Source: a bacterium
Lineage (GTDB): Bacteria; CSSED10-310; JAJRTK01
Direction: 5' to 3'
DNA: 6,935 bases
NCBI GenBank assembly: GCA_024278345.1
Contig: JAJRTK010000227.1
Location: 1 to 6,935, forward strand
Part shown: one piece after another, positions 364 through 6,935 of the stretch
Numbering within the stretch: position 1 is the stretch's first letter
How the letters are laid out: each line of letters opens with the position of its first letter
Made by a program: the position numbers and the translations under genes
The notes under the pieces: generated by a model
What the model was told of the DNA's origin: nothing
Seen by the model: only the letters and a program-made list of their open reading frames with translations
The model's database searches: none

Positions 364-1989
364 ATGGGGGACTGGGTGGAGATTCTTGTTGTCGATGGAA
401 CGGCGGGGTTGCGGGAGCTTGAGGGTCGGCTGAGTTGGGACCTGGGCGTGGTGTTTCTTCGCCTGGATGAAGCCACCGTGGTCCGGAATATCCAGAAGAT
501 CGAGGCGTTGTCGGAGCGGGGCCTCATGGAGGTGGTGCTCTGCCACGAACGTCCGGAGGCTGCCGACCTGGAGATCCTGCTCTGGAAAAAGGCCAAGGGT
601 AAGCTCGGACATCGGCCGCCCTTGACGCAGGATGAGCTCTTGAAGGTGGCCTGGAAAAAAGAGCTCTTTCCGCCGGGCCACCGCCGGAGGCTATTGAACG
701 GGGAATGTTTCGGCGTCCGCACTGCTCGGCTTCCCGTGGGCTGCGGAATCGAGGAGTGGTTGCGCCAGGTGGTGGGGGTGAGGGCGGCGGAGGCGTATGT
801 CGCCTGTCCGGATGACTGGCCCCACTGGGCGAAGCATGCCGCAGTCCTCAAAGCGGTTCCCTCTGCCCGGCTCGTTCTTCCCATGGGAACCTATCTCAGT
901 CGCCGGGGCCGCCGGGCCGTGAAGTGGCGGAAAAAGGTCTTCGAGAGGGGGATCTGCCCCGGCGAAGCGCCCAAAGGGCATCTTTTGCCGTTGCGGCAGG
1001 ATGGGGCACCCACGGGTCGCGGCACTCCCGTGGCCGCCGTCGATGGCCTGCTTCAGGTGCGGTTGGAGGGGGCCGAGGAGCGGTATGCCTGGATTCCTCT
1101 TCTCCATCACTGTGGCGCCGGCTTTGCGCGGCTCATGGGTTGCTTTGGAAAGGCCAGCTTGCCCGTGGAGGAGATGGAGAATGCGCTTCTGCGACCGACC
1201 CAGGTGAAGGGTTGGGAGAGTGCGCCCGCCTTGACGAGGGTTCCTTTTGGGTGCCGGCTGAAAGTCTTTGTTGACCACGGATTGGAGATCTCCGTGGAAA
1301 CCAAGCGCCTCGATTCCTGGGCCCACTCGTCGTGGTTGGGGAAGATTCCCCTGCTGGGGCGAGTACTGGGGAAGGCATTGGGGGGGAAAGGTGTTTTAGG
1401 GGCGGAGGCCCGGCGGATCCTCTCCTGCTATGTCAGGAGCCTCGAATCCCCGGGGAGCTCGAAACGGGGGGGGATGCGCTGGTTCGTCGTTCCTGGTGGG
1501 GCGCTCTATTTGGCCAGGAGGTGCGGGAATGCGCTGGGTTGGGTGCCGAGCCTGCTTTTGCCCGGCGAGGAGGTTTCACTGGTGAAGGGGGCTGCCGCGG
1601 GCCACCTGGATATGAGGCAAGGAAAGAGGATCTGGTTGGGGCAGGTGGAAGTCAACCGAGAGGATTTCCCCTTGCGCGGATGCCTGGGCCTTGTCCGGGA
1701 GCCGGAGACGCTCCAGTGGCTGTCCACGAGGTGGCCGGGGATTGGCCGGGCTGTTTCGGGGAGGGCTCCCGGTGAAAGGTTCTATGAGGACCAGGGCCGC
1801 GGAGGCGTTGGCGAGGCCCTGGCGGCGGCGAGGCGGAAGAGTTCTGCAAGCGACGGGTCCGTGAAGCTCCGGGTGATTCGGTCTCTTCATCCGCTTCTCT
1901 ACGAGTTGGGATGGCCCGGTGTGGATGGCAAGGGTGGAGAAAAAAACGGGATGCCGGAAACAAAGGCGGAGAAGAAGGAGGGAGAATGA
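364..1989 (+). CDS. Gene A: unrecognised alpha/beta protein, about 541 aa
   Basis: I do not recognise the family. I place the start at ATG 364. The frame stays open to GTG 205, but those 53 residues are Cys/Arg-rich and overlap a repeat. GTG 376, with GGGGGA just upstream, is a serious alternative. With the ATG start, residues 6-80 alternate predicted strands and helices (EILVVDG, GVVFLRL, EVVLCHE) in a Rossmann-like pattern. A second such stretch lies near 115-175 (EAYVACPDDW, ARLVLPMG). The C-terminal half has VFVDHGLEISVE (301-312), FVVPGGA (374-380) and EEVSLVKGAAAG (402-413). Their order and spacing faintly recall the phosphate-2, adenosine and GAA segments of actin/Hsp70 ATPases, but key glycines are missing and no convincing phosphate-1 loop is seen. 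The tail from about residue 475 is basic and low-complexity. I see no signal peptide or membrane segment. The stop overlaps the next start (ATGA), so it is almost certainly co-translated with the sigma-like gene and could be a partner, regulator or effector of it. Confidence 0.75.
   Translation: MGDWVEILVVDGTAGLRELEGRLSWDLGVVFLRLDEATVVRNIQKIEALSERGLMEVVLCHERPEAADLEILLWKKAKGKLGHRPPLTQDELLKVAWKKELFPPGHRRRLLNGECFGVRTARLPVGCGIEEWLRQVVGVRAAEAYVACPDDWPHWAKHAAVLKAVPSARLVLPMGTYLSRRGRRAVKWRKKVFERGICPGEAPKGHLLPLRQDGAPTGRGTPVAAVDGLLQVRLEGAEERYAWIPLLHHCGAGFARLMGCFGKASLPVEEMENALLRPTQVKGWESAPALTRVPFGCRLKVFVDHGLEISVETKRLDSWAHSSWLGKIPLLGRVLGKALGGKGVLGAEARRILSCYVRSLESPGSSKRGGMRWFVVPGGALYLARRCGNALGWVPSLLLPGEEVSLVKGAAAGHLDMRQGKRIWLGQVEVNREDFPLRGCLGLVREPETLQWLSTRWPGIGRAVSGRAPGERFYEDQGRGGVGEALAAARRKSSASDGSVKLRVIRSLHPLLYELGWPGVDGKGGEKNGMPETKAEKKEGE
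1975..1981 (+). promoter_or_regulatory. Strong Shine-Dalgarno for gene B
   Basis: AAGGAGG lies 4 nt before ATG 1986, inside the last codons of gene A. It decides the start of gene B, because the frame is open further upstream to ATG 1911 without a comparable site. It also supports coupled translation of A and B. Confidence 0.8.
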
Positions 1990-3149
1990 GCCTGGATCGG
2001 GCAGTGGAGCGTTATCTTTTGGCTCTGGCGAAAGAGAAGGGTTGGGACGGTTCTCGGCGGGAGGCCGGGAGGCTTGTCTGCTCCCGCCGCCGTGCGGAGG
2101 CGGATTTGCTTCGATTGATTCAGCAAAGTTGCCACTCCTTGTGGAAGCTGTCCTACCACCGGGAGATCGGCCAGCGGGGCTACGATTCTCGTGATGCCGC
2201 CAGCAAGGCCATGGAGGAGTTTTTGCTGGAAATTGACAGGAATGGCGGGCTTCGAGAGGATGCCGGGCATGCGGCGCGGTGGCTCAAGGTGGTCTGCAAG
2301 CACCGGGTGATCGATCTGTTTGGCCGAGGCCGCCAGAGGGAGGAATTGCGGGACTGCGACTATTGGGCGGAGCTGGGAGATCCCGACCATGGGATGGAGG
2401 CGGGCGCCGCGCTGACCTGGAAGGAAATACTGGAGGCGTTACAGGAGGACCACCAGACCTTGCGTCTCAAGTACGCCAAGTCTTCACGGAAGTTGCGGGC
2501 CTTGGAATGGGATTGTCGAGCCTTCTTAAAGCTGCGCCTGGAAAGGGAGTCGGCGGCAGAGATCGTGGGTCAAGCCATGGAGCCCAGTCCTTATGTTGCC
2601 CAGGGGGAAGGTCCTTCGTCCATGAGGAAAGCGGAGGCCCGGGTTTGCCGAGGTGCTTGCCGGTATGCGCGGGAGCTTCGGTCGTTGGTGGCGGCGGGAG
2701 AATCGGCCTTGTTGCGAAGGATTCCGGCTCTTGGGTTGAGGGAGCGGGGAGCTCGACAGCCCGAAGAGTTTTCCCGGAGCGATCACCGGGCCATTCAGGT
2801 TCAGCTTCGGGGCCTGGAAAAGATTTTGGTTGAGGAAACGAGGGTGGCGGAGATCCGGCACAGGCTCTGGGCGCTGGAACAGAGGTGCATCTTGGGATTG
2901 AAGCCGAGGGAAATCGTGCGGAAGGCGCCGGAGGGGTCGCCTTATCATGTTCCCCCTGGCGGCGGGAGTGGAGTTGCGAAAAGGAAGAGTGCGTTGGTAG
3001 GCAGGCACGTGAGGCGTTTGCTGGAGAGACTTCAGGTTTTGTTGAGAGAGTGGCCGGAGGGTTTTCCCGGCGAGCTCCGTGTTTTGCTGGGGAAGCTGGT
3101 GGCCGCCGGTTGCCGGGGCTCATCGGGAGATCTGGGAGTTCCGGGTTAG
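1986..3149 (+). CDS. Gene B: ECF-like sigma factor with duplicated region 4-like segment
   Basis: The protein has 387 residues, about twice a normal ECF sigma factor, and is predicted to be cytoplasmic. Residues 38-118 match sigma70 region 2: an early EADLLRLI helix, DSRDAASKAMEEFLLEI (67-83, the usual DAxxexFL stretch), then AARWLKVVCKHRVIDLFGRG (96-115), the typical region 2.3-2.4 RxWLxxvaxxrxiDxxRR pattern. Residues 176-235 fit region 4 (CRAFLKLRLERESAAEIV plus a basic tail). Residues 293-352 repeat this layout. At a constant offset of 117 residues, EIV (192/309), A197/314, SPY (201/318), S211/328, K215/332, R226/343 and E230/347 coincide. The expected role is recruiting RNA polymerase to specific promoters, or acting as a sigma-like DNA-binding regulator. 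The ATGA overlap with gene A and the CARF gene downstream suggest its activity is tied to a signal sensed by the locus. No anti-sigma gene is recognisable. The region-2 assignment is firm. Region-4A is good. The second copy is inferred from the internal alignment. Confidence 0.85.
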   Translation: MSLDRAVERYLLALAKEKGWDGSRREAGRLVCSRRRAEADLLRLIQQSCHSLWKLSYHREIGQRGYDSRDAASKAMEEFLLEIDRNGGLREDAGHAARWLKVVCKHRVIDLFGRGRQREELRDCDYWAELGDPDHGMEAGAALTWKEILEALQEDHQTLRLKYAKSSRKLRALEWDCRAFLKLRLERESAAEIVGQAMEPSPYVAQGEGPSSMRKAEARVCRGACRYARELRSLVAAGESALLRRIPALGLRERGARQPEEFSRSDHRAIQVQLRGLEKILVEETRVAEIRHRLWALEQRCILGLKPREIVRKAPEGSPYHVPPGGGSGVAKRKSALVGRHVRRLLERLQVLLREWPEGFPGELRVLLGKLVAAGCRGSSGDLGVPG

Positions 3150-3263
3150 ATCGACATTTTGGGAAACGGATCTTTTGAGAAGGCCTCCTTTGGCATCGAA
3201 CGATGATTCCGAAAGCTCTTTTCTTCGCGGAAGAGCCTGCTTTCGCATACCGGATTCCAGCGG
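3150..3263 (+). promoter_or_regulatory. Regulatory gap before gene C, with hairpin
   Basis: This is the only sizeable gap between the genes (114 bp). It contains GCTCTT (3215-3220) and AAGAGC (3231-3236), extendable by two G-U pairs to an 8-bp stem closed by CUUCGC. The hairpin has no downstream T-tract, so it looks more like an RNA-processing or attenuation element than a terminator. GGGAAAC at 3161-3167 resembles the GGAAC-type -35 element of many ECF promoters, but I cannot identify a matching -10. Gene C may be transcribed both by read-through and from its own promoter, possibly one used by the gene B sigma factor. That last idea is speculation. Confidence 0.35.
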
Positions 3264-6200
3264 GTGGAAAAAGTGACAAGGAACAGCATCGATTGGAAAG
3301 ATGAAGAGGCCCGGGTGGACCTATGGGAGTGTTTGGACGATCTGGAGACCGGGGATGCCGAGCCTGCTCAGCGGGTACCGGCCTCTATTCGACCTGCCCT
3401 TGAGCTCCTTGGCGGCCTGGCCCTGGGAGCCGCTAGCGAGTCCGAAGCTCCCGGAGCCTTCGAGTTGGCCGAGCTGTTGGCGACGGCCATCAGGATTGCC
3501 TCGCTTTCCGGAGTTGATATCCATGGGGAGGAGGTTCTCCTTGCGCTGGAGCCGGCTTACCCTCTCTTCGATGCCTGTGCCCGGGAGCTGGCCGTGGAGA
3601 TCCGGAGCGATCTGGCGGGTTTCCGCCATGCCGCCGTGGGATTGATACAAGATTGCTACGCCCTGGAGTCCCTGGAACCTCTCCCGCTGGATTCTCTCCA
3701 GGTGGCCCGCGATTATTTGAAGGAATTGGCGCTCCTGGATGGCGTGATGCCCTGGTTGGAATCGGCGGCGGCCAGGCTTCGACGGCAGTGGCTCCAGGTC
3801 CTGGTGGAATCTCTTCGCCAGGCTTGGAAGGAAGCAGGTGAAGCGCTGGCGCCACGGGAGATTGCGGAGCACCTTTGGCCACTGGCCGACGAGGCGCGTG
3901 CTTTGGGGCTGAGCTGGATCCTCGCCCTGTGGGAATTGCTCCACGCGCACCGGGTAGAACTCAAGGATGCCGTCAGAAAGGGCCTTCTCCAAGATGCCGG
4001 GCCGGAAGCCCCGAGCTCGACGCAACCCCCCGCTGGGGACAGCCTTCTCCAAGATGCCGGGCCGGAAGCCCCGAGCCCGACGCAACCCCCCGCTGGGGAC
4101 AGCCTTCTCCAAGATGCCGGGCCGGAAGCCCCGAGCTCGACGCAACCCCCCGCTGAGGACAGCCTTCTCCCGGAGGCCGGGCCGGAAGCCCATGGGGCCT
4201 CGGGGAGGCCGGTGGGCGGTCTGGAGGTTTTGCGGCTGCCCGTTGCCGTGCCCCGGATTGCCGGCGGTTTCCCCCCGAACCGCCCGCCGGAGGTCTCCAT
4301 CCCACCCCGGAAACTGGCGCCGGCGAGCATGCGCCTGGCGGCGGAAGGGATGCTGCCCGAGAAAGACTTCGAGCTGATCCGCCGCGCAGCCCGGGGCCAG
4401 CCCGGGTTCTGGGCCGTGGCCCATCGCCAGGCCCTCTACCGGGATGGCTTCACCACGCCGGTCTATCTTGTGCCGGGAGTGGAGGGGGAGTGGACGGCGC
4501 CGCCCTCCTTCCAGGACGCGGAAGAGGAGCTTCGCAGCGTCCGGATCTTGCCGGAGGCCAAGGCCCTGGCGCTGCCCCAAGGCAGTGATGTGGCCCGGCC
4601 CGGGGATGGCGACGCCGAAAGAGGGGAGAGCCCCGATGACCGGGAGGCGCGGGACGATCCTGGCGAGGCCCTGCCGGACTCTCTGGACAAGGGGCTGGCC
4701 CGGTGCGACCAGGGGATCGAGATCCTGGAGGATGGCACTCCCTTGGAGGCCATTGCCCTGGTTTCCAAAAACTTGCCATTGGCCAGGGCTCGTCTTCGGG
4801 CATTCGGCGATGAGAAGGGTCTCTGGTGCGAGATGAAGCCGTTGGACGGCTCCGCAACGGAGCGCTGCCGCGAACAGGGCCTCCTGGGAGAAGCCAGTGG
4901 AGACCGAGCCCAACTCGCCCTGCTTCGCCTTACGGAGAACGGAGGAGCCGGAGAAAAGACCCGTTTCCGGCCAGGTCCCCTTCGGCCGGCTCTCGGTGAG
5001 CTGGATCGAGCCTACTCGCCCAGGGCTTACGTCGTTACCGTGGGGGAGAGCTTGCTGCGGGGAGTGCTGGGATGGGGGTTCGGCGGAGACTGCGCGGAGC
5101 GTCTGAACCGGGCCGCCCGGGAGGCGGGAATCCAGACCTATGGTGAGCTCAAGACCCTGCTGCTGGGAACCAAAATCCAGAAGGAGGGGGACCTCTTTCC
5201 CGAGCTTCCCCGAAGCTGGACCGACCCCTACAACTGGCCGGCGCCTTGGATCGCTTCTTTGCCGGTCATCGGCGGCCAGGACGGCACAACCACCCTTGGG
5301 GAGCGGTGGAGCCAGCTCATCCAGCGCGGGAGCTTCGGAGATCCTTCCCTCTTTCCCGAGCTGGGCGCCGAGATTGATACCCTGGCGGCCCTGGGTCAGG
5401 GCGCTGACCCTCGGCTCCGGCCCAAGGGCGGCGATCTCTTTGTGTTGATCCCCACGGATACCGCTACGGCCATCCTGTCGGCATTGCTCATTGGCCGCTG
5501 GCTGACAAGAGACTTGGCGGGGGTAAGGCTCCGCATCCAGGTGGCGGGAGTCCTGCGGCAAAAAGAAGAGCTTCGCAGCCCGGAAAACGGCTTCAATAGA
5601 CCCCATGGAGAGGAGCCAGAACCCCTGGAAATGATGACGAAGCTGACGGAGGATCTGCTGGAGCGGCTCTTGCGCCACGAAGCCGCTGATCCGGTCCTCG
5701 TCATTCCAGGCGGCTTGAAGACACAGACGATTCCTCTGGTGGCGGTGGGGTTTGAGCGGTGCGTGCCCTGTGTCTACAAGCCCAGGTTAGGCGAGGTCCC
5801 GCTGGTTCTGCGCTGGGATCTCGTGGGGCGCCAGCTCCAGGAACGGATTGAGGGGGAGAATTGGCGTTATCTTCCGGTTCCGGCTTCCGCGCCTCAGGCT
5901 GCCGGATCCGAGTATACCGAAACCAGCGGCGGGTCCGAGCCCGTAGCATCCACCCTTCCGGTGGCTCTTTTGGTGAGTGTCGGCACCAGCCTGCTGTTCA
6001 ACTACAAGAAAGACGTTGCCCGGCGGACGGGTCAACGGCTGCAAGAGATCCCCACGCCTACGGGAGCGAAGCTGGCACATTGGGCGCTCCACGGAGCTCA
6101 GAGCTCTCCGGATGATTCTCCATCTCTTTCACCCGGGATCTGGGAGCTTTCCGCCGAGCTCACGACCCTTGAGGCATGGCTTCGAGAACGAGATTATCCC

Positions 6201-6704
6201 GGACTCCGGGATTGCCGGCTTTCCCCCGAGCCCGGCGCGGCGGACGGAAAGCGAGCTTATCCCGAGCTTCTTCTCCTGGGCACGGACTCCCACGAGGGGC
6301 GCCTTTGCCTCCACGTCTTGGAGATGCTCCTGGAAGATTGTTGCGGTCTGACACTCCACCATCATTCCACACGATTTCCCGAGCTTTCGCTGGAAAAGCC
6401 TGGCTTCTCTTCGCGGGATGGCCAGCTATTCAAGGAGGTCCTGGTTCCGGCAAGTCGCTTCGTCCGGGAGCTCCGTCGAGACGGGCGCCGTGTTGAGATT
6501 CTCGTCAGTGGAGGTCAGGTTCTCACCGCGGCACTGCTCCAGTTCGTGGGCCGGGTCACCTCCTGCGATGTCCATTTGCTGTCAAATCTTTCCCAAGATG
6601 GGAAACAGGTGAGTCCCCTCCTTCGTTTCCCCCAAAAAGGACCTTCACGGCCGCCCGGGGCGGAACCTGCTTCGCCAGCGGAACCCAACGAAAACGGCAC
6701 GTAG
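3264..6704 (+). CDS. Gene C: large protein with two tandem C-terminal CARF-like domains
   Basis: The protein has 1146 residues from GTG 3264. GTG 3273, preceded by GGTGGA, gives a product three residues shorter and has the better ribosome site. Residues 1-240 are mostly helical. Residues 241-309 are a Pro/Ala-rich linker of 20-residue repeats. Residues 320-570 are not recognised and include an acidic stretch near 445-475. Two CARF-like units follow, with four motifs in the same order. Unit 1 (about 588-850): VVTVGESLL (590-598), AEIDTLAAL (702-710), LFVLIPTDTA (725-734), VLVIPGGLKT (811-820). Unit 2 (about 898-1124): LLVSVGTSLLFN (902-913), SAELTTLEAWL (963-973), LLLLGTDSHEG (1002-1012), EILVSGGQVLT (1078-1088). 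These correspond to the VGTSLL, AEI/L-xSL, SDTpEG and GGFK-type motifs of the Cas_APE2256 (TIGR02619/PF09651) CARF family, whose known members bind cyclic oligoadenylates. Two CARFs in one chain occur in the nuclease Can1, but I see no PD-(D/E)XK, HEPN or protease signature here. No signal peptide or membrane helix is visible. The effector function, presumably in the first 570 residues, is unknown. Confidence 0.88.
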   Translation: MEKVTRNSIDWKDEEARVDLWECLDDLETGDAEPAQRVPASIRPALELLGGLALGAASESEAPGAFELAELLATAIRIASLSGVDIHGEEVLLALEPAYPLFDACARELAVEIRSDLAGFRHAAVGLIQDCYALESLEPLPLDSLQVARDYLKELALLDGVMPWLESAAARLRRQWLQVLVESLRQAWKEAGEALAPREIAEHLWPLADEARALGLSWILALWELLHAHRVELKDAVRKGLLQDAGPEAPSSTQPPAGDSLLQDAGPEAPSPTQPPAGDSLLQDAGPEAPSSTQPPAEDSLLPEAGPEAHGASGRPVGGLEVLRLPVAVPRIAGGFPPNRPPEVSIPPRKLAPASMRLAAEGMLPEKDFELIRRAARGQPGFWAVAHRQALYRDGFTTPVYLVPGVEGEWTAPPSFQDAEEELRSVRILPEAKALALPQGSDVARPGDGDAERGESPDDREARDDPGEALPDSLDKGLARCDQGIEILEDGTPLEAIALVSKNLPLARARLRAFGDEKGLWCEMKPLDGSATERCREQGLLGEASGDRAQLALLRLTENGGAGEKTRFRPGPLRPALGELDRAYSPRAYVVTVGESLLRGVLGWGFGGDCAERLNRAAREAGIQTYGELKTLLLGTKIQKEGDLFPELPRSWTDPYNWPAPWIASLPVIGGQDGTTTLGERWSQLIQRGSFGDPSLFPELGAEIDTLAALGQGADPRLRPKGGDLFVLIPTDTATAILSALLIGRWLTRDLAGVRLRIQVAGVLRQKEELRSPENGFNRPHGEEPEPLEMMTKLTEDLLERLLRHEAADPVLVIPGGLKTQTIPLVAVGFERCVPCVYKPRLGEVPLVLRWDLVGRQLQERIEGENWRYLPVPASAPQAAGSEYTETSGGSEPVASTLPVALLVSVGTSLLFNYKKDVARRTGQRLQEIPTPTGAKLAHWALHGAQSSPDDSPSLSPGIWELSAELTTLEAWLRERDYPGLRDCRLSPEPGAADGKRAYPELLLLGTDSHEGRLCLHVLEMLLEDCCGLTLHHHSTRFPELSLEKPGFSSRDGQLFKEVLVPASRFVRELRRDGRRVEILVSGGQVLTAALLQFVGRVTSCDVHLLSNLSQDGKQVSPLLRFPQKGPSRPPGAEPASPAEPNENGT
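3983..4191 (+). repeat. 60-bp in-frame tandem repeat, about 3.5 copies
   Basis: The unit begins CCTTCTCCAAGATGCC and recurs every 60 bp at 3983, 4043, 4103 and 4163. The first three copies are nearly identical: one T/C change in GAGCTCGA, and GGGG to GAGG in copy three. The fourth is diverged and partial. It encodes 20-residue units of the form LLQDAGPEAPSSTQPPAGDS, a flexible acidic Pro/Ala linker between the helical N-terminus and the rest of gene C. The near-identity at DNA level suggests recent expansion, so copy number may vary between strains. Confidence 0.95.
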
Positions 6705-6782
6705 CCATTCATCACGCCGGTCACTGGATTGGGGCATCCACGCAAGGCGGGACAGAACAGGGAAAAAAAGGAAAATGTGGTG
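6705..6782. other. Spacer after gene C
   Basis: I see no gene in this stretch and no hairpin plus T-tract immediately after the stop codon. It ends in an A-rich segment (6762-6775) leading into AAAATGTGG (6772-6780). That 9-mer recurs at 6828-6836, so it flanks the CCGAGC repeat pair. Confidence 0.5.
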
Positions 6783-6814
6783 CCGAGCGAAGCGAGACGC
6801 CGAGCATAAGCGAG
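6783..6814. repeat. Two near-identical CCGAGC..AAGCGAG units
   Basis: CCGAGCGAAGCGAG (6783-6796) and CCGAGCATAAGCGAG (6800-6814) are direct near-copies separated by ACG. They differ only in the two or three central bases. They resemble short-period elements common in intergenic repeat families of GC-rich bacteria. No coding role is visible. Confidence 0.6.
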
Positions 6815-6815
6815 G

Positions 6816-6904
6816 CCCACCGTACAAAAAATGTGGGTCCAGGGAGCGTGCTCCCTGGTGGGTGCAGGGCGAAGCCCTGCCAGGGGACGGGGGATGGAAT
6901 CCCC
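6816..6904. repeat. Run of four consecutive stem-loops
   Basis: Stem 1: CCCAC (6816-6820) with GTGGG (6833-6837), around an A-rich loop. Stem 2: CCAGGGAGC (6839-6847) with GCTCCCTGG (6850-6858), a perfect 9-bp stem. Stem 3: GCAGGGC (6864-6870) with GCCCTGC (6874-6880), GAA loop. Stem 4: GGGGAT (6890-6895) with ATCCCC (6899-6904). A fifth stem follows in the 38-bp repeat. On the minus strand, stem 2 is followed seven bases later by TTTTTT, so it could weakly terminate leftward transcription. The array may end or stabilise the gene C transcript, or be part of a dispersed repeat. Confidence 0.75.
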
Positions 6905-6935
6905 GGACCACCTTCGAGTCACGCAAACGTGACCC
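6898..6935. repeat. 38-bp direct repeat, right copy
   Basis: This matches 174-211 with three differences (TT to CC near the start, and G to A in the hairpin loop). The perfect stem GTCACG (6918-6923) with CGTGAC (6928-6933) is kept, with loop CAAA. The first seven bases overlap the right arm of stem 4 in the preceding array. The window ends at the repeat, so homology may continue to the right. Confidence 0.85.

Follow-up and report, generated by a model that had tools for sequence, protein, structure and literature searches.

A tandem-CARF protein encoded downstream of a candidate sigma-like gene in a bacterial genome with five Cas10 proteins

Does a CARF sensor, encoded next to a possible sigma factor and a third protein of no recognized family, form a route from type III CRISPR signaling to transcription? 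The question is raised by contig C151, whose entire length of 6935 bp is the window analyzed here; it belongs to a 6.06-Mb genome in 550 contigs (88% complete) from a poorly sampled phylum with seven other species available for comparison. Three plus-strand genes fill the window: gene A (364-1989; 541 aa), gene B (1986-3149; 387 aa) and gene C (3264-6704; 1146 aa), the last with two GTG candidates for its start, at 3264 or 3273. A and B were delineated as open reading frames, in the case of A together with codon-position composition, and base composition and GC content by codon position are of the coding type in all three genes; the long minus-strand reading frames were set aside as shadow frames opposite these GC-rich genes. 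An earlier note on this DNA had described A and B as translationally coupled, with C following on the same strand. The second statement holds, as C lies on the plus strand 114 nt beyond B with no intervening gene. As for the first, the two genes do share the four bases ATGA at 1986-1989, and a Shine–Dalgarno sequence of the GGAGG type lies closely upstream, which makes coupling plausible.

The firmest part of the answer concerns C. The proposal that it is a double CARF protein is borne out by both Pfam and PADLOC models: Cas_APE2256 (PF09651) matches at 36.4 bits against a curated cut-off of 24.8 (E 5.5e-9) over two stretches, one at residues 700-838, and the PADLOC models recovered include CARF_RelE (1.3e-14), Csm6 (2.3e-11) and CARF7--CARF (2e-9, residues 900-1092). 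When C is split in two, either half alone matches PF09651, with E-values of 2.5e-5 and 0.002. From the alignment, the first CARF domain occupies about residues 584-850 (5013-5813, plus strand) and bears the motifs GAE, TDT and GGLK, thus retaining GGxK (PGGLKTQ). The second occupies about residues 898-1110 (5955-6593, plus strand; the PF09651 match with E 0.002 covers residues 999-1101) and shows VGTSLL-x-N, SAEL and TDS-x-EG, with the GGxK lysine replaced (SGGQVLT, GGQV). This asymmetric pair of motif sets suggests that the two domains form an intrachain pseudo-dimer. In the profile search C is the sole PF09651 match in its genome, to which a second CARF model adds one marginal place. Upstream of the CARF pair, the N-terminal ~580 residues have no family match in the profile search; their first part (residues 1-239; 3264-3980, plus strand) is helical by sequence inspection only, and is followed by a near-perfect, in-frame 60-nt tandem repeat (3982-4191, plus strand; 3.5 copies, Tandem Repeats Finder score 385) encoding a Pro/Ala-rich linker (LLQDAGPEAPSSTQPPAGDS) that is likely to have expanded recently. 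C would stand as a strongly diverged tandem-CARF protein, 580 residues of which lack a family, even if B proves unrelated; a relative of C could already be described in the CARF superfamily literature.

The same genome offers a probable source of messenger for such a sensor. It encodes five Cas10 proteins with GGDD cyclase motifs, all on contigs other than C151 and accompanied in the genome by Cmr4, Cmr6, Cmr1, Csx10 and Csm3-type partners. Two are Cas10s with HD in III-B loci with Cmr partners (contigs C340 and C377); two, on contigs C201 and C326, are of the Csx10-type, III-D-like sort, the Csx10 match coming from C201, whose protein that of C326 closely resembles; and the remaining one (contig C244, L036), devoid of a subtype call, is an HD-less Cas10 with GGDD that is adjoined by a RAMP gene and a gene for a DnaJ-like protein. 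With these five GGDD Cas10s, the genome probably produces the messenger that C would read. A Csm6-type HEPN domain is also encoded on contig C377 near the III-B locus, so C is not the sole possible responder. These cas neighborhoods contain further components that we record in their own right. On contig C340 a gene directly adjoining the III-B cas genes (L032:265-1242, minus strand) codes for a 325-aa fusion of a Schlafen AlbA_2 domain (PF04326, 2.6e-11) with a C-terminal Csx15 domain (PADLOC 1.7e-27). On contig C377 a nucleotide-cyclase-like protein, matching Pycsar cyclase models at 3e-17, is encoded divergently beside the III-B cas10 (L033:3390-5018, minus strand). Finally, two similar AAA-ATPase genes (L035:2-1588 and 12335-13870) flank a III-D-like cas locus.

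The 6.9-kb window itself has no cas gene, and no CRISPR array was found in it or in the examined cas contigs of the same genome. Both its ends carry a dispersed multi-hairpin repeat of ~200 nt (6731-6935, the contig end, and 1-211), which has 56 matches on ~40 contigs of this genome and a DNA fold z of -2.87. Assembly stops at such high-copy repeats; hence, the linkage of A, B and C to cas genes is unreadable. The repeat includes a 23-nt unit that occurs in tandem in L081.

Taken together, the CARF pair and the Cas10s make it likely that C has some ancillary role in type III systems, whether as a sensor or as an effector. What it does upon sensing admits several readings. One is that C is an effector akin to Csm6 and Csx1, in which a diverged nuclease, for instance a HEPN domain, makes up the N-terminal or middle region and is switched on by the CARF pair. 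The presence of Csm6 and CARF-RelE among the best models and an R-x4-H motif at residue 198, the only one in C, fit this reading. However, HEPN, RelE and PD-(D/E)xK profiles have no match in C at E 10, and motifs of the R-x4-6-H type are common by chance, with A and B having three each. Moreover, the HEPN domain of Csm6 and Csx1 is located after the CARF domain, whereas the region without a family in C precedes it. We accordingly regard a nuclease of this kind as unlikely. Another reading casts C as a ring nuclease or a cyclic oligoadenylate (cOA) buffer that terminates type III signaling, its N-terminal part being a scaffold. Certain CARF families are indeed ring nucleases (PMC12669027), and the asymmetric site, with the GGxK lysine in CARF1 and absent from CARF2, would be in keeping with such an activity; yet 1146 residues are many for a ring nuclease and some 580 of them would be left without a role, rendering this reading improbable.

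If C is instead a sensor that signals to its neighbors, the nature of B becomes central. The earlier note had called it a sigma factor, which we could not confirm: B has no match in Pfam (even at E 10), NCBIfam, PHROGs or PDB, and the Sigma70_r2 profile leaves it unmatched while matching 15 other places in the same genome. There is, nevertheless, a similarity that is consistent in register even though it falls short of significance. With a sigma profile built from sigma factors of the same phylum, hhalign places residues 40-118 of B (WLKVVCKHRVIDLFGRG; 2103-2339, plus strand) onto ECF sigma-2, at profile positions 29-101, that is the region-2 position, over 72 columns with a score of 20.8 and E 0.023; scores as high arose in 5/300 shuffles and in 6/420 other reading frames, giving an empirical p of ~0.015 (~1.5%). 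In phmmer, about residues 68-143 align to several ECF sigma factors, and residues 68-120 (SRDAASKAMEEFLLEIDR ... AARWLKVVCKHRVIDLFGRGRQREEL) resemble sigma region 2 by eye. HMMER aligned residues 169-198 with sigma region 4.1 at a score that is negative and not significant. A rank test of B against sigma reading frames (p 8e-4) was dropped because its controls, B reversed or shuffled, yielded comparable p values. At this level of significance, the alignments do no more than suggest a sigma factor.

Farther along the protein, B carries a clear internal duplication: unit 1 (residues 166-227; 2481-2666, plus strand) and unit 2 (residues 290-345; 2853-3020, plus strand) align in hhalign with a score of 28.2, as against 16.9 for the best of 200 shuffles, with 40% identity over 55 columns. 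By eye only, the former is sigma-4/HTH-like and the latter HTH-like. The duplicated units could be two HTH units, and such a duplication would explain the "oversized" length noted earlier for this protein. The duplication of an HTH-like-looking unit, combined with the lack of a significant sigma match, would also fit B being some other HTH or helical protein, such as a repressor or a part of an A–B unit, whether or not it is regulated by C. This identity for B, which overlaps the other alternatives considered here, is quite possible, though the best sigma alignment speaks against it by being long (72 columns) and in the right place. The AlphaFold2 single-sequence model of B was too poor to use (pLDDT 41.6), and a PDB fold search with this low-confidence model returned no meaningful match.

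The partner gene, A, codes for a basic protein (83 K+R vs 61 D+E) with no match in Pfam, NCBIfam, PADLOC, PHROGs, PDB or plasmids; the profile search recovered no family for it, anti-sigma families included. Its AlphaFold2 single-sequence model (pLDDT 35) was likewise unusable. Family scans of A, B and C agree with the earlier statement that no Lon or CHAT protease is encoded here, and Lon and SAVED in particular have no match in the three proteins in the Pfam, NCBIfam and PADLOC scans. Since A and ~580 residues of C are without a family, either may yet harbor proteolytic or nucleolytic activity of an unrecognized type.

Whether A–B and C act as one unit is a separate matter. The A–B–C arrangement was found nowhere else in 386 sampled genomes and other samples, and single-sequence searches, of which an empty outcome is no proof of absence, covered up to 386 sampled genomes along with two more phylum samples and found a homologue for none of the three genes. 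Scanning 85k species and viral contigs by pattern, and plasmids (plus phages for B) by tblastn, gave no relative. Searched alone, B yielded one chance-level match and nothing else in 98 relatives, and nothing in the 195 genomes sampled from another phylum; A yielded nothing in 98 relatives and, among 398 genomes from another phylum, a single low-quality match with stops. A concatenation of A, B and the N-terminus of C found nothing in 386 genomes except one chance-level match (two candidates scored per genome), and the tandem CARF region of C returned weak partial matches in 386 genomes and nothing stronger. The weak matches at G089:C70 (to B), G127:C12 (to A) and G819:C14 (to A, in a frame with stops) were taken as chance. 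As no homologous loci were found to show conservation of gene order, a single A–B–C unit is unproven.

C could also be a stand-alone cOA effector or sensor, with A–B being an unrelated two-gene unit that lies upstream by chance. This is a possibility to which the 114-nt B–C spacing and the lack of conserved gene order both lend weight, as does the precedent that CARF proteins mostly act alone as effectors (Csx1, Csm6, Can1-2, Cami1; PMC11229360). A–B and C also differ in their use of TTG and AGR codons and in third-position GC skew; however, genes in this genome vary widely, with third-position skew spanning -0.54 to +0.39, so this difference is not diagnostic and was dropped. Conversely, C shares the strand of A–B with no gene in between, and no terminator-like site was predicted within the 114-nt gap. 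Across the window such sites were no commoner than in shuffles, and a promoter scan of it found no promoter.

With this in mind, we advance the following tentative mechanism. C would act in type III CRISPR signaling as an ancillary sensor, its two CARF domains pairing within one chain and binding cOA produced by one of the five Cas10s. Ligand binding might then be relayed to the neighboring B–A pair via the N-terminal region and its proline-rich linker. There, B would be a strongly diverged sigma-like transcription factor with a region 2 and two repeated HTH-like units, which A, plausibly coupled to it in translation, probably holds or stabilizes. Ligand-bound C would release or recruit B, thereby altering transcription during infection; in the absence of a recognizable protease, this control would rely on direct binding instead of cleavage. 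The sigma alignment in the region-2 register, the duplication in B, the A–B overlap, the CARF pair and the GGDD Cas10s favor the model, while the sub-significant sigma match, the lack of a conserved neighborhood or of a cas gene in the window, the 114-nt B–C gap, the lack of a family for A and the presence of another possible responder, the Csm6-type HEPN domain, weigh against it. We infer every step beyond ligand sensing, and hold the full path from cOA sensor to transcription, with C acting on the B–A pair, to be possible. Its more specific form, in which type III signaling does without a protease and a tandem-CARF sensor governs, either directly or via A, a diverged sigma factor whose region-4-like units are duplicated, is doubtful.

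Individual elements of this scheme have precedents. Csa3 and RtcR similarly tie CARF sensing to transcription, but have a wHTH or a sigma-54 activator fused to the CARF domain, in place of which a separate candidate protein, B, is found here; two-CARF fusions and CARF-linked transcriptional control via sigma-54 (RtcR) or Csa3 have already been described (PMC4012209). With the Csm6/Cas_APE2256 CARF proteins and Can1/Csm6-2, C shares PF09651 CARF domains, two of them in one chain, and it differs from them in having no detected HEPN or nuclease domain and an extra N-terminal 580 residues. The Calp system consists of a SAVED-Lon protease, an anti-sigma and an ECF sigma factor (PMC11417357). The present locus resembles CalpL/CalpT/CalpS in placing a cOA-type sensor gene beside a possible sigma-family gene in a genome with Cas10, and departs from it in that a CARF pair takes the place of SAVED, Lon is absent, A has no anti-sigma match, and the location is not seen to be within a cas locus. 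The type III-E route through Csx29 and Csx30 connects to a sigma factor, CASP-sigma, and CRISPR-linked sigma control is the logic that our proposal would have in common with this Craspase system. In contrast to it, the present setting comprises a CARF sensor and Cas10-type III systems, with no TPR-CHAT protease, gRAMP or Cas7-11 among the window's genes. According to two reports, the Csx29 protease acts on Csx30 (PMC10028731, PMC9729208).

In the literature searched, the routes from CRISPR to a sigma factor number two, Calp and type III-E Csx29/Csx30, both of which use a protease. If the proposed mechanism is true, control of a sigma-like factor through binding by a CARF sensor would constitute a third and simpler route, and type III responses would widen from killing and dormancy to transcriptional reprogramming.
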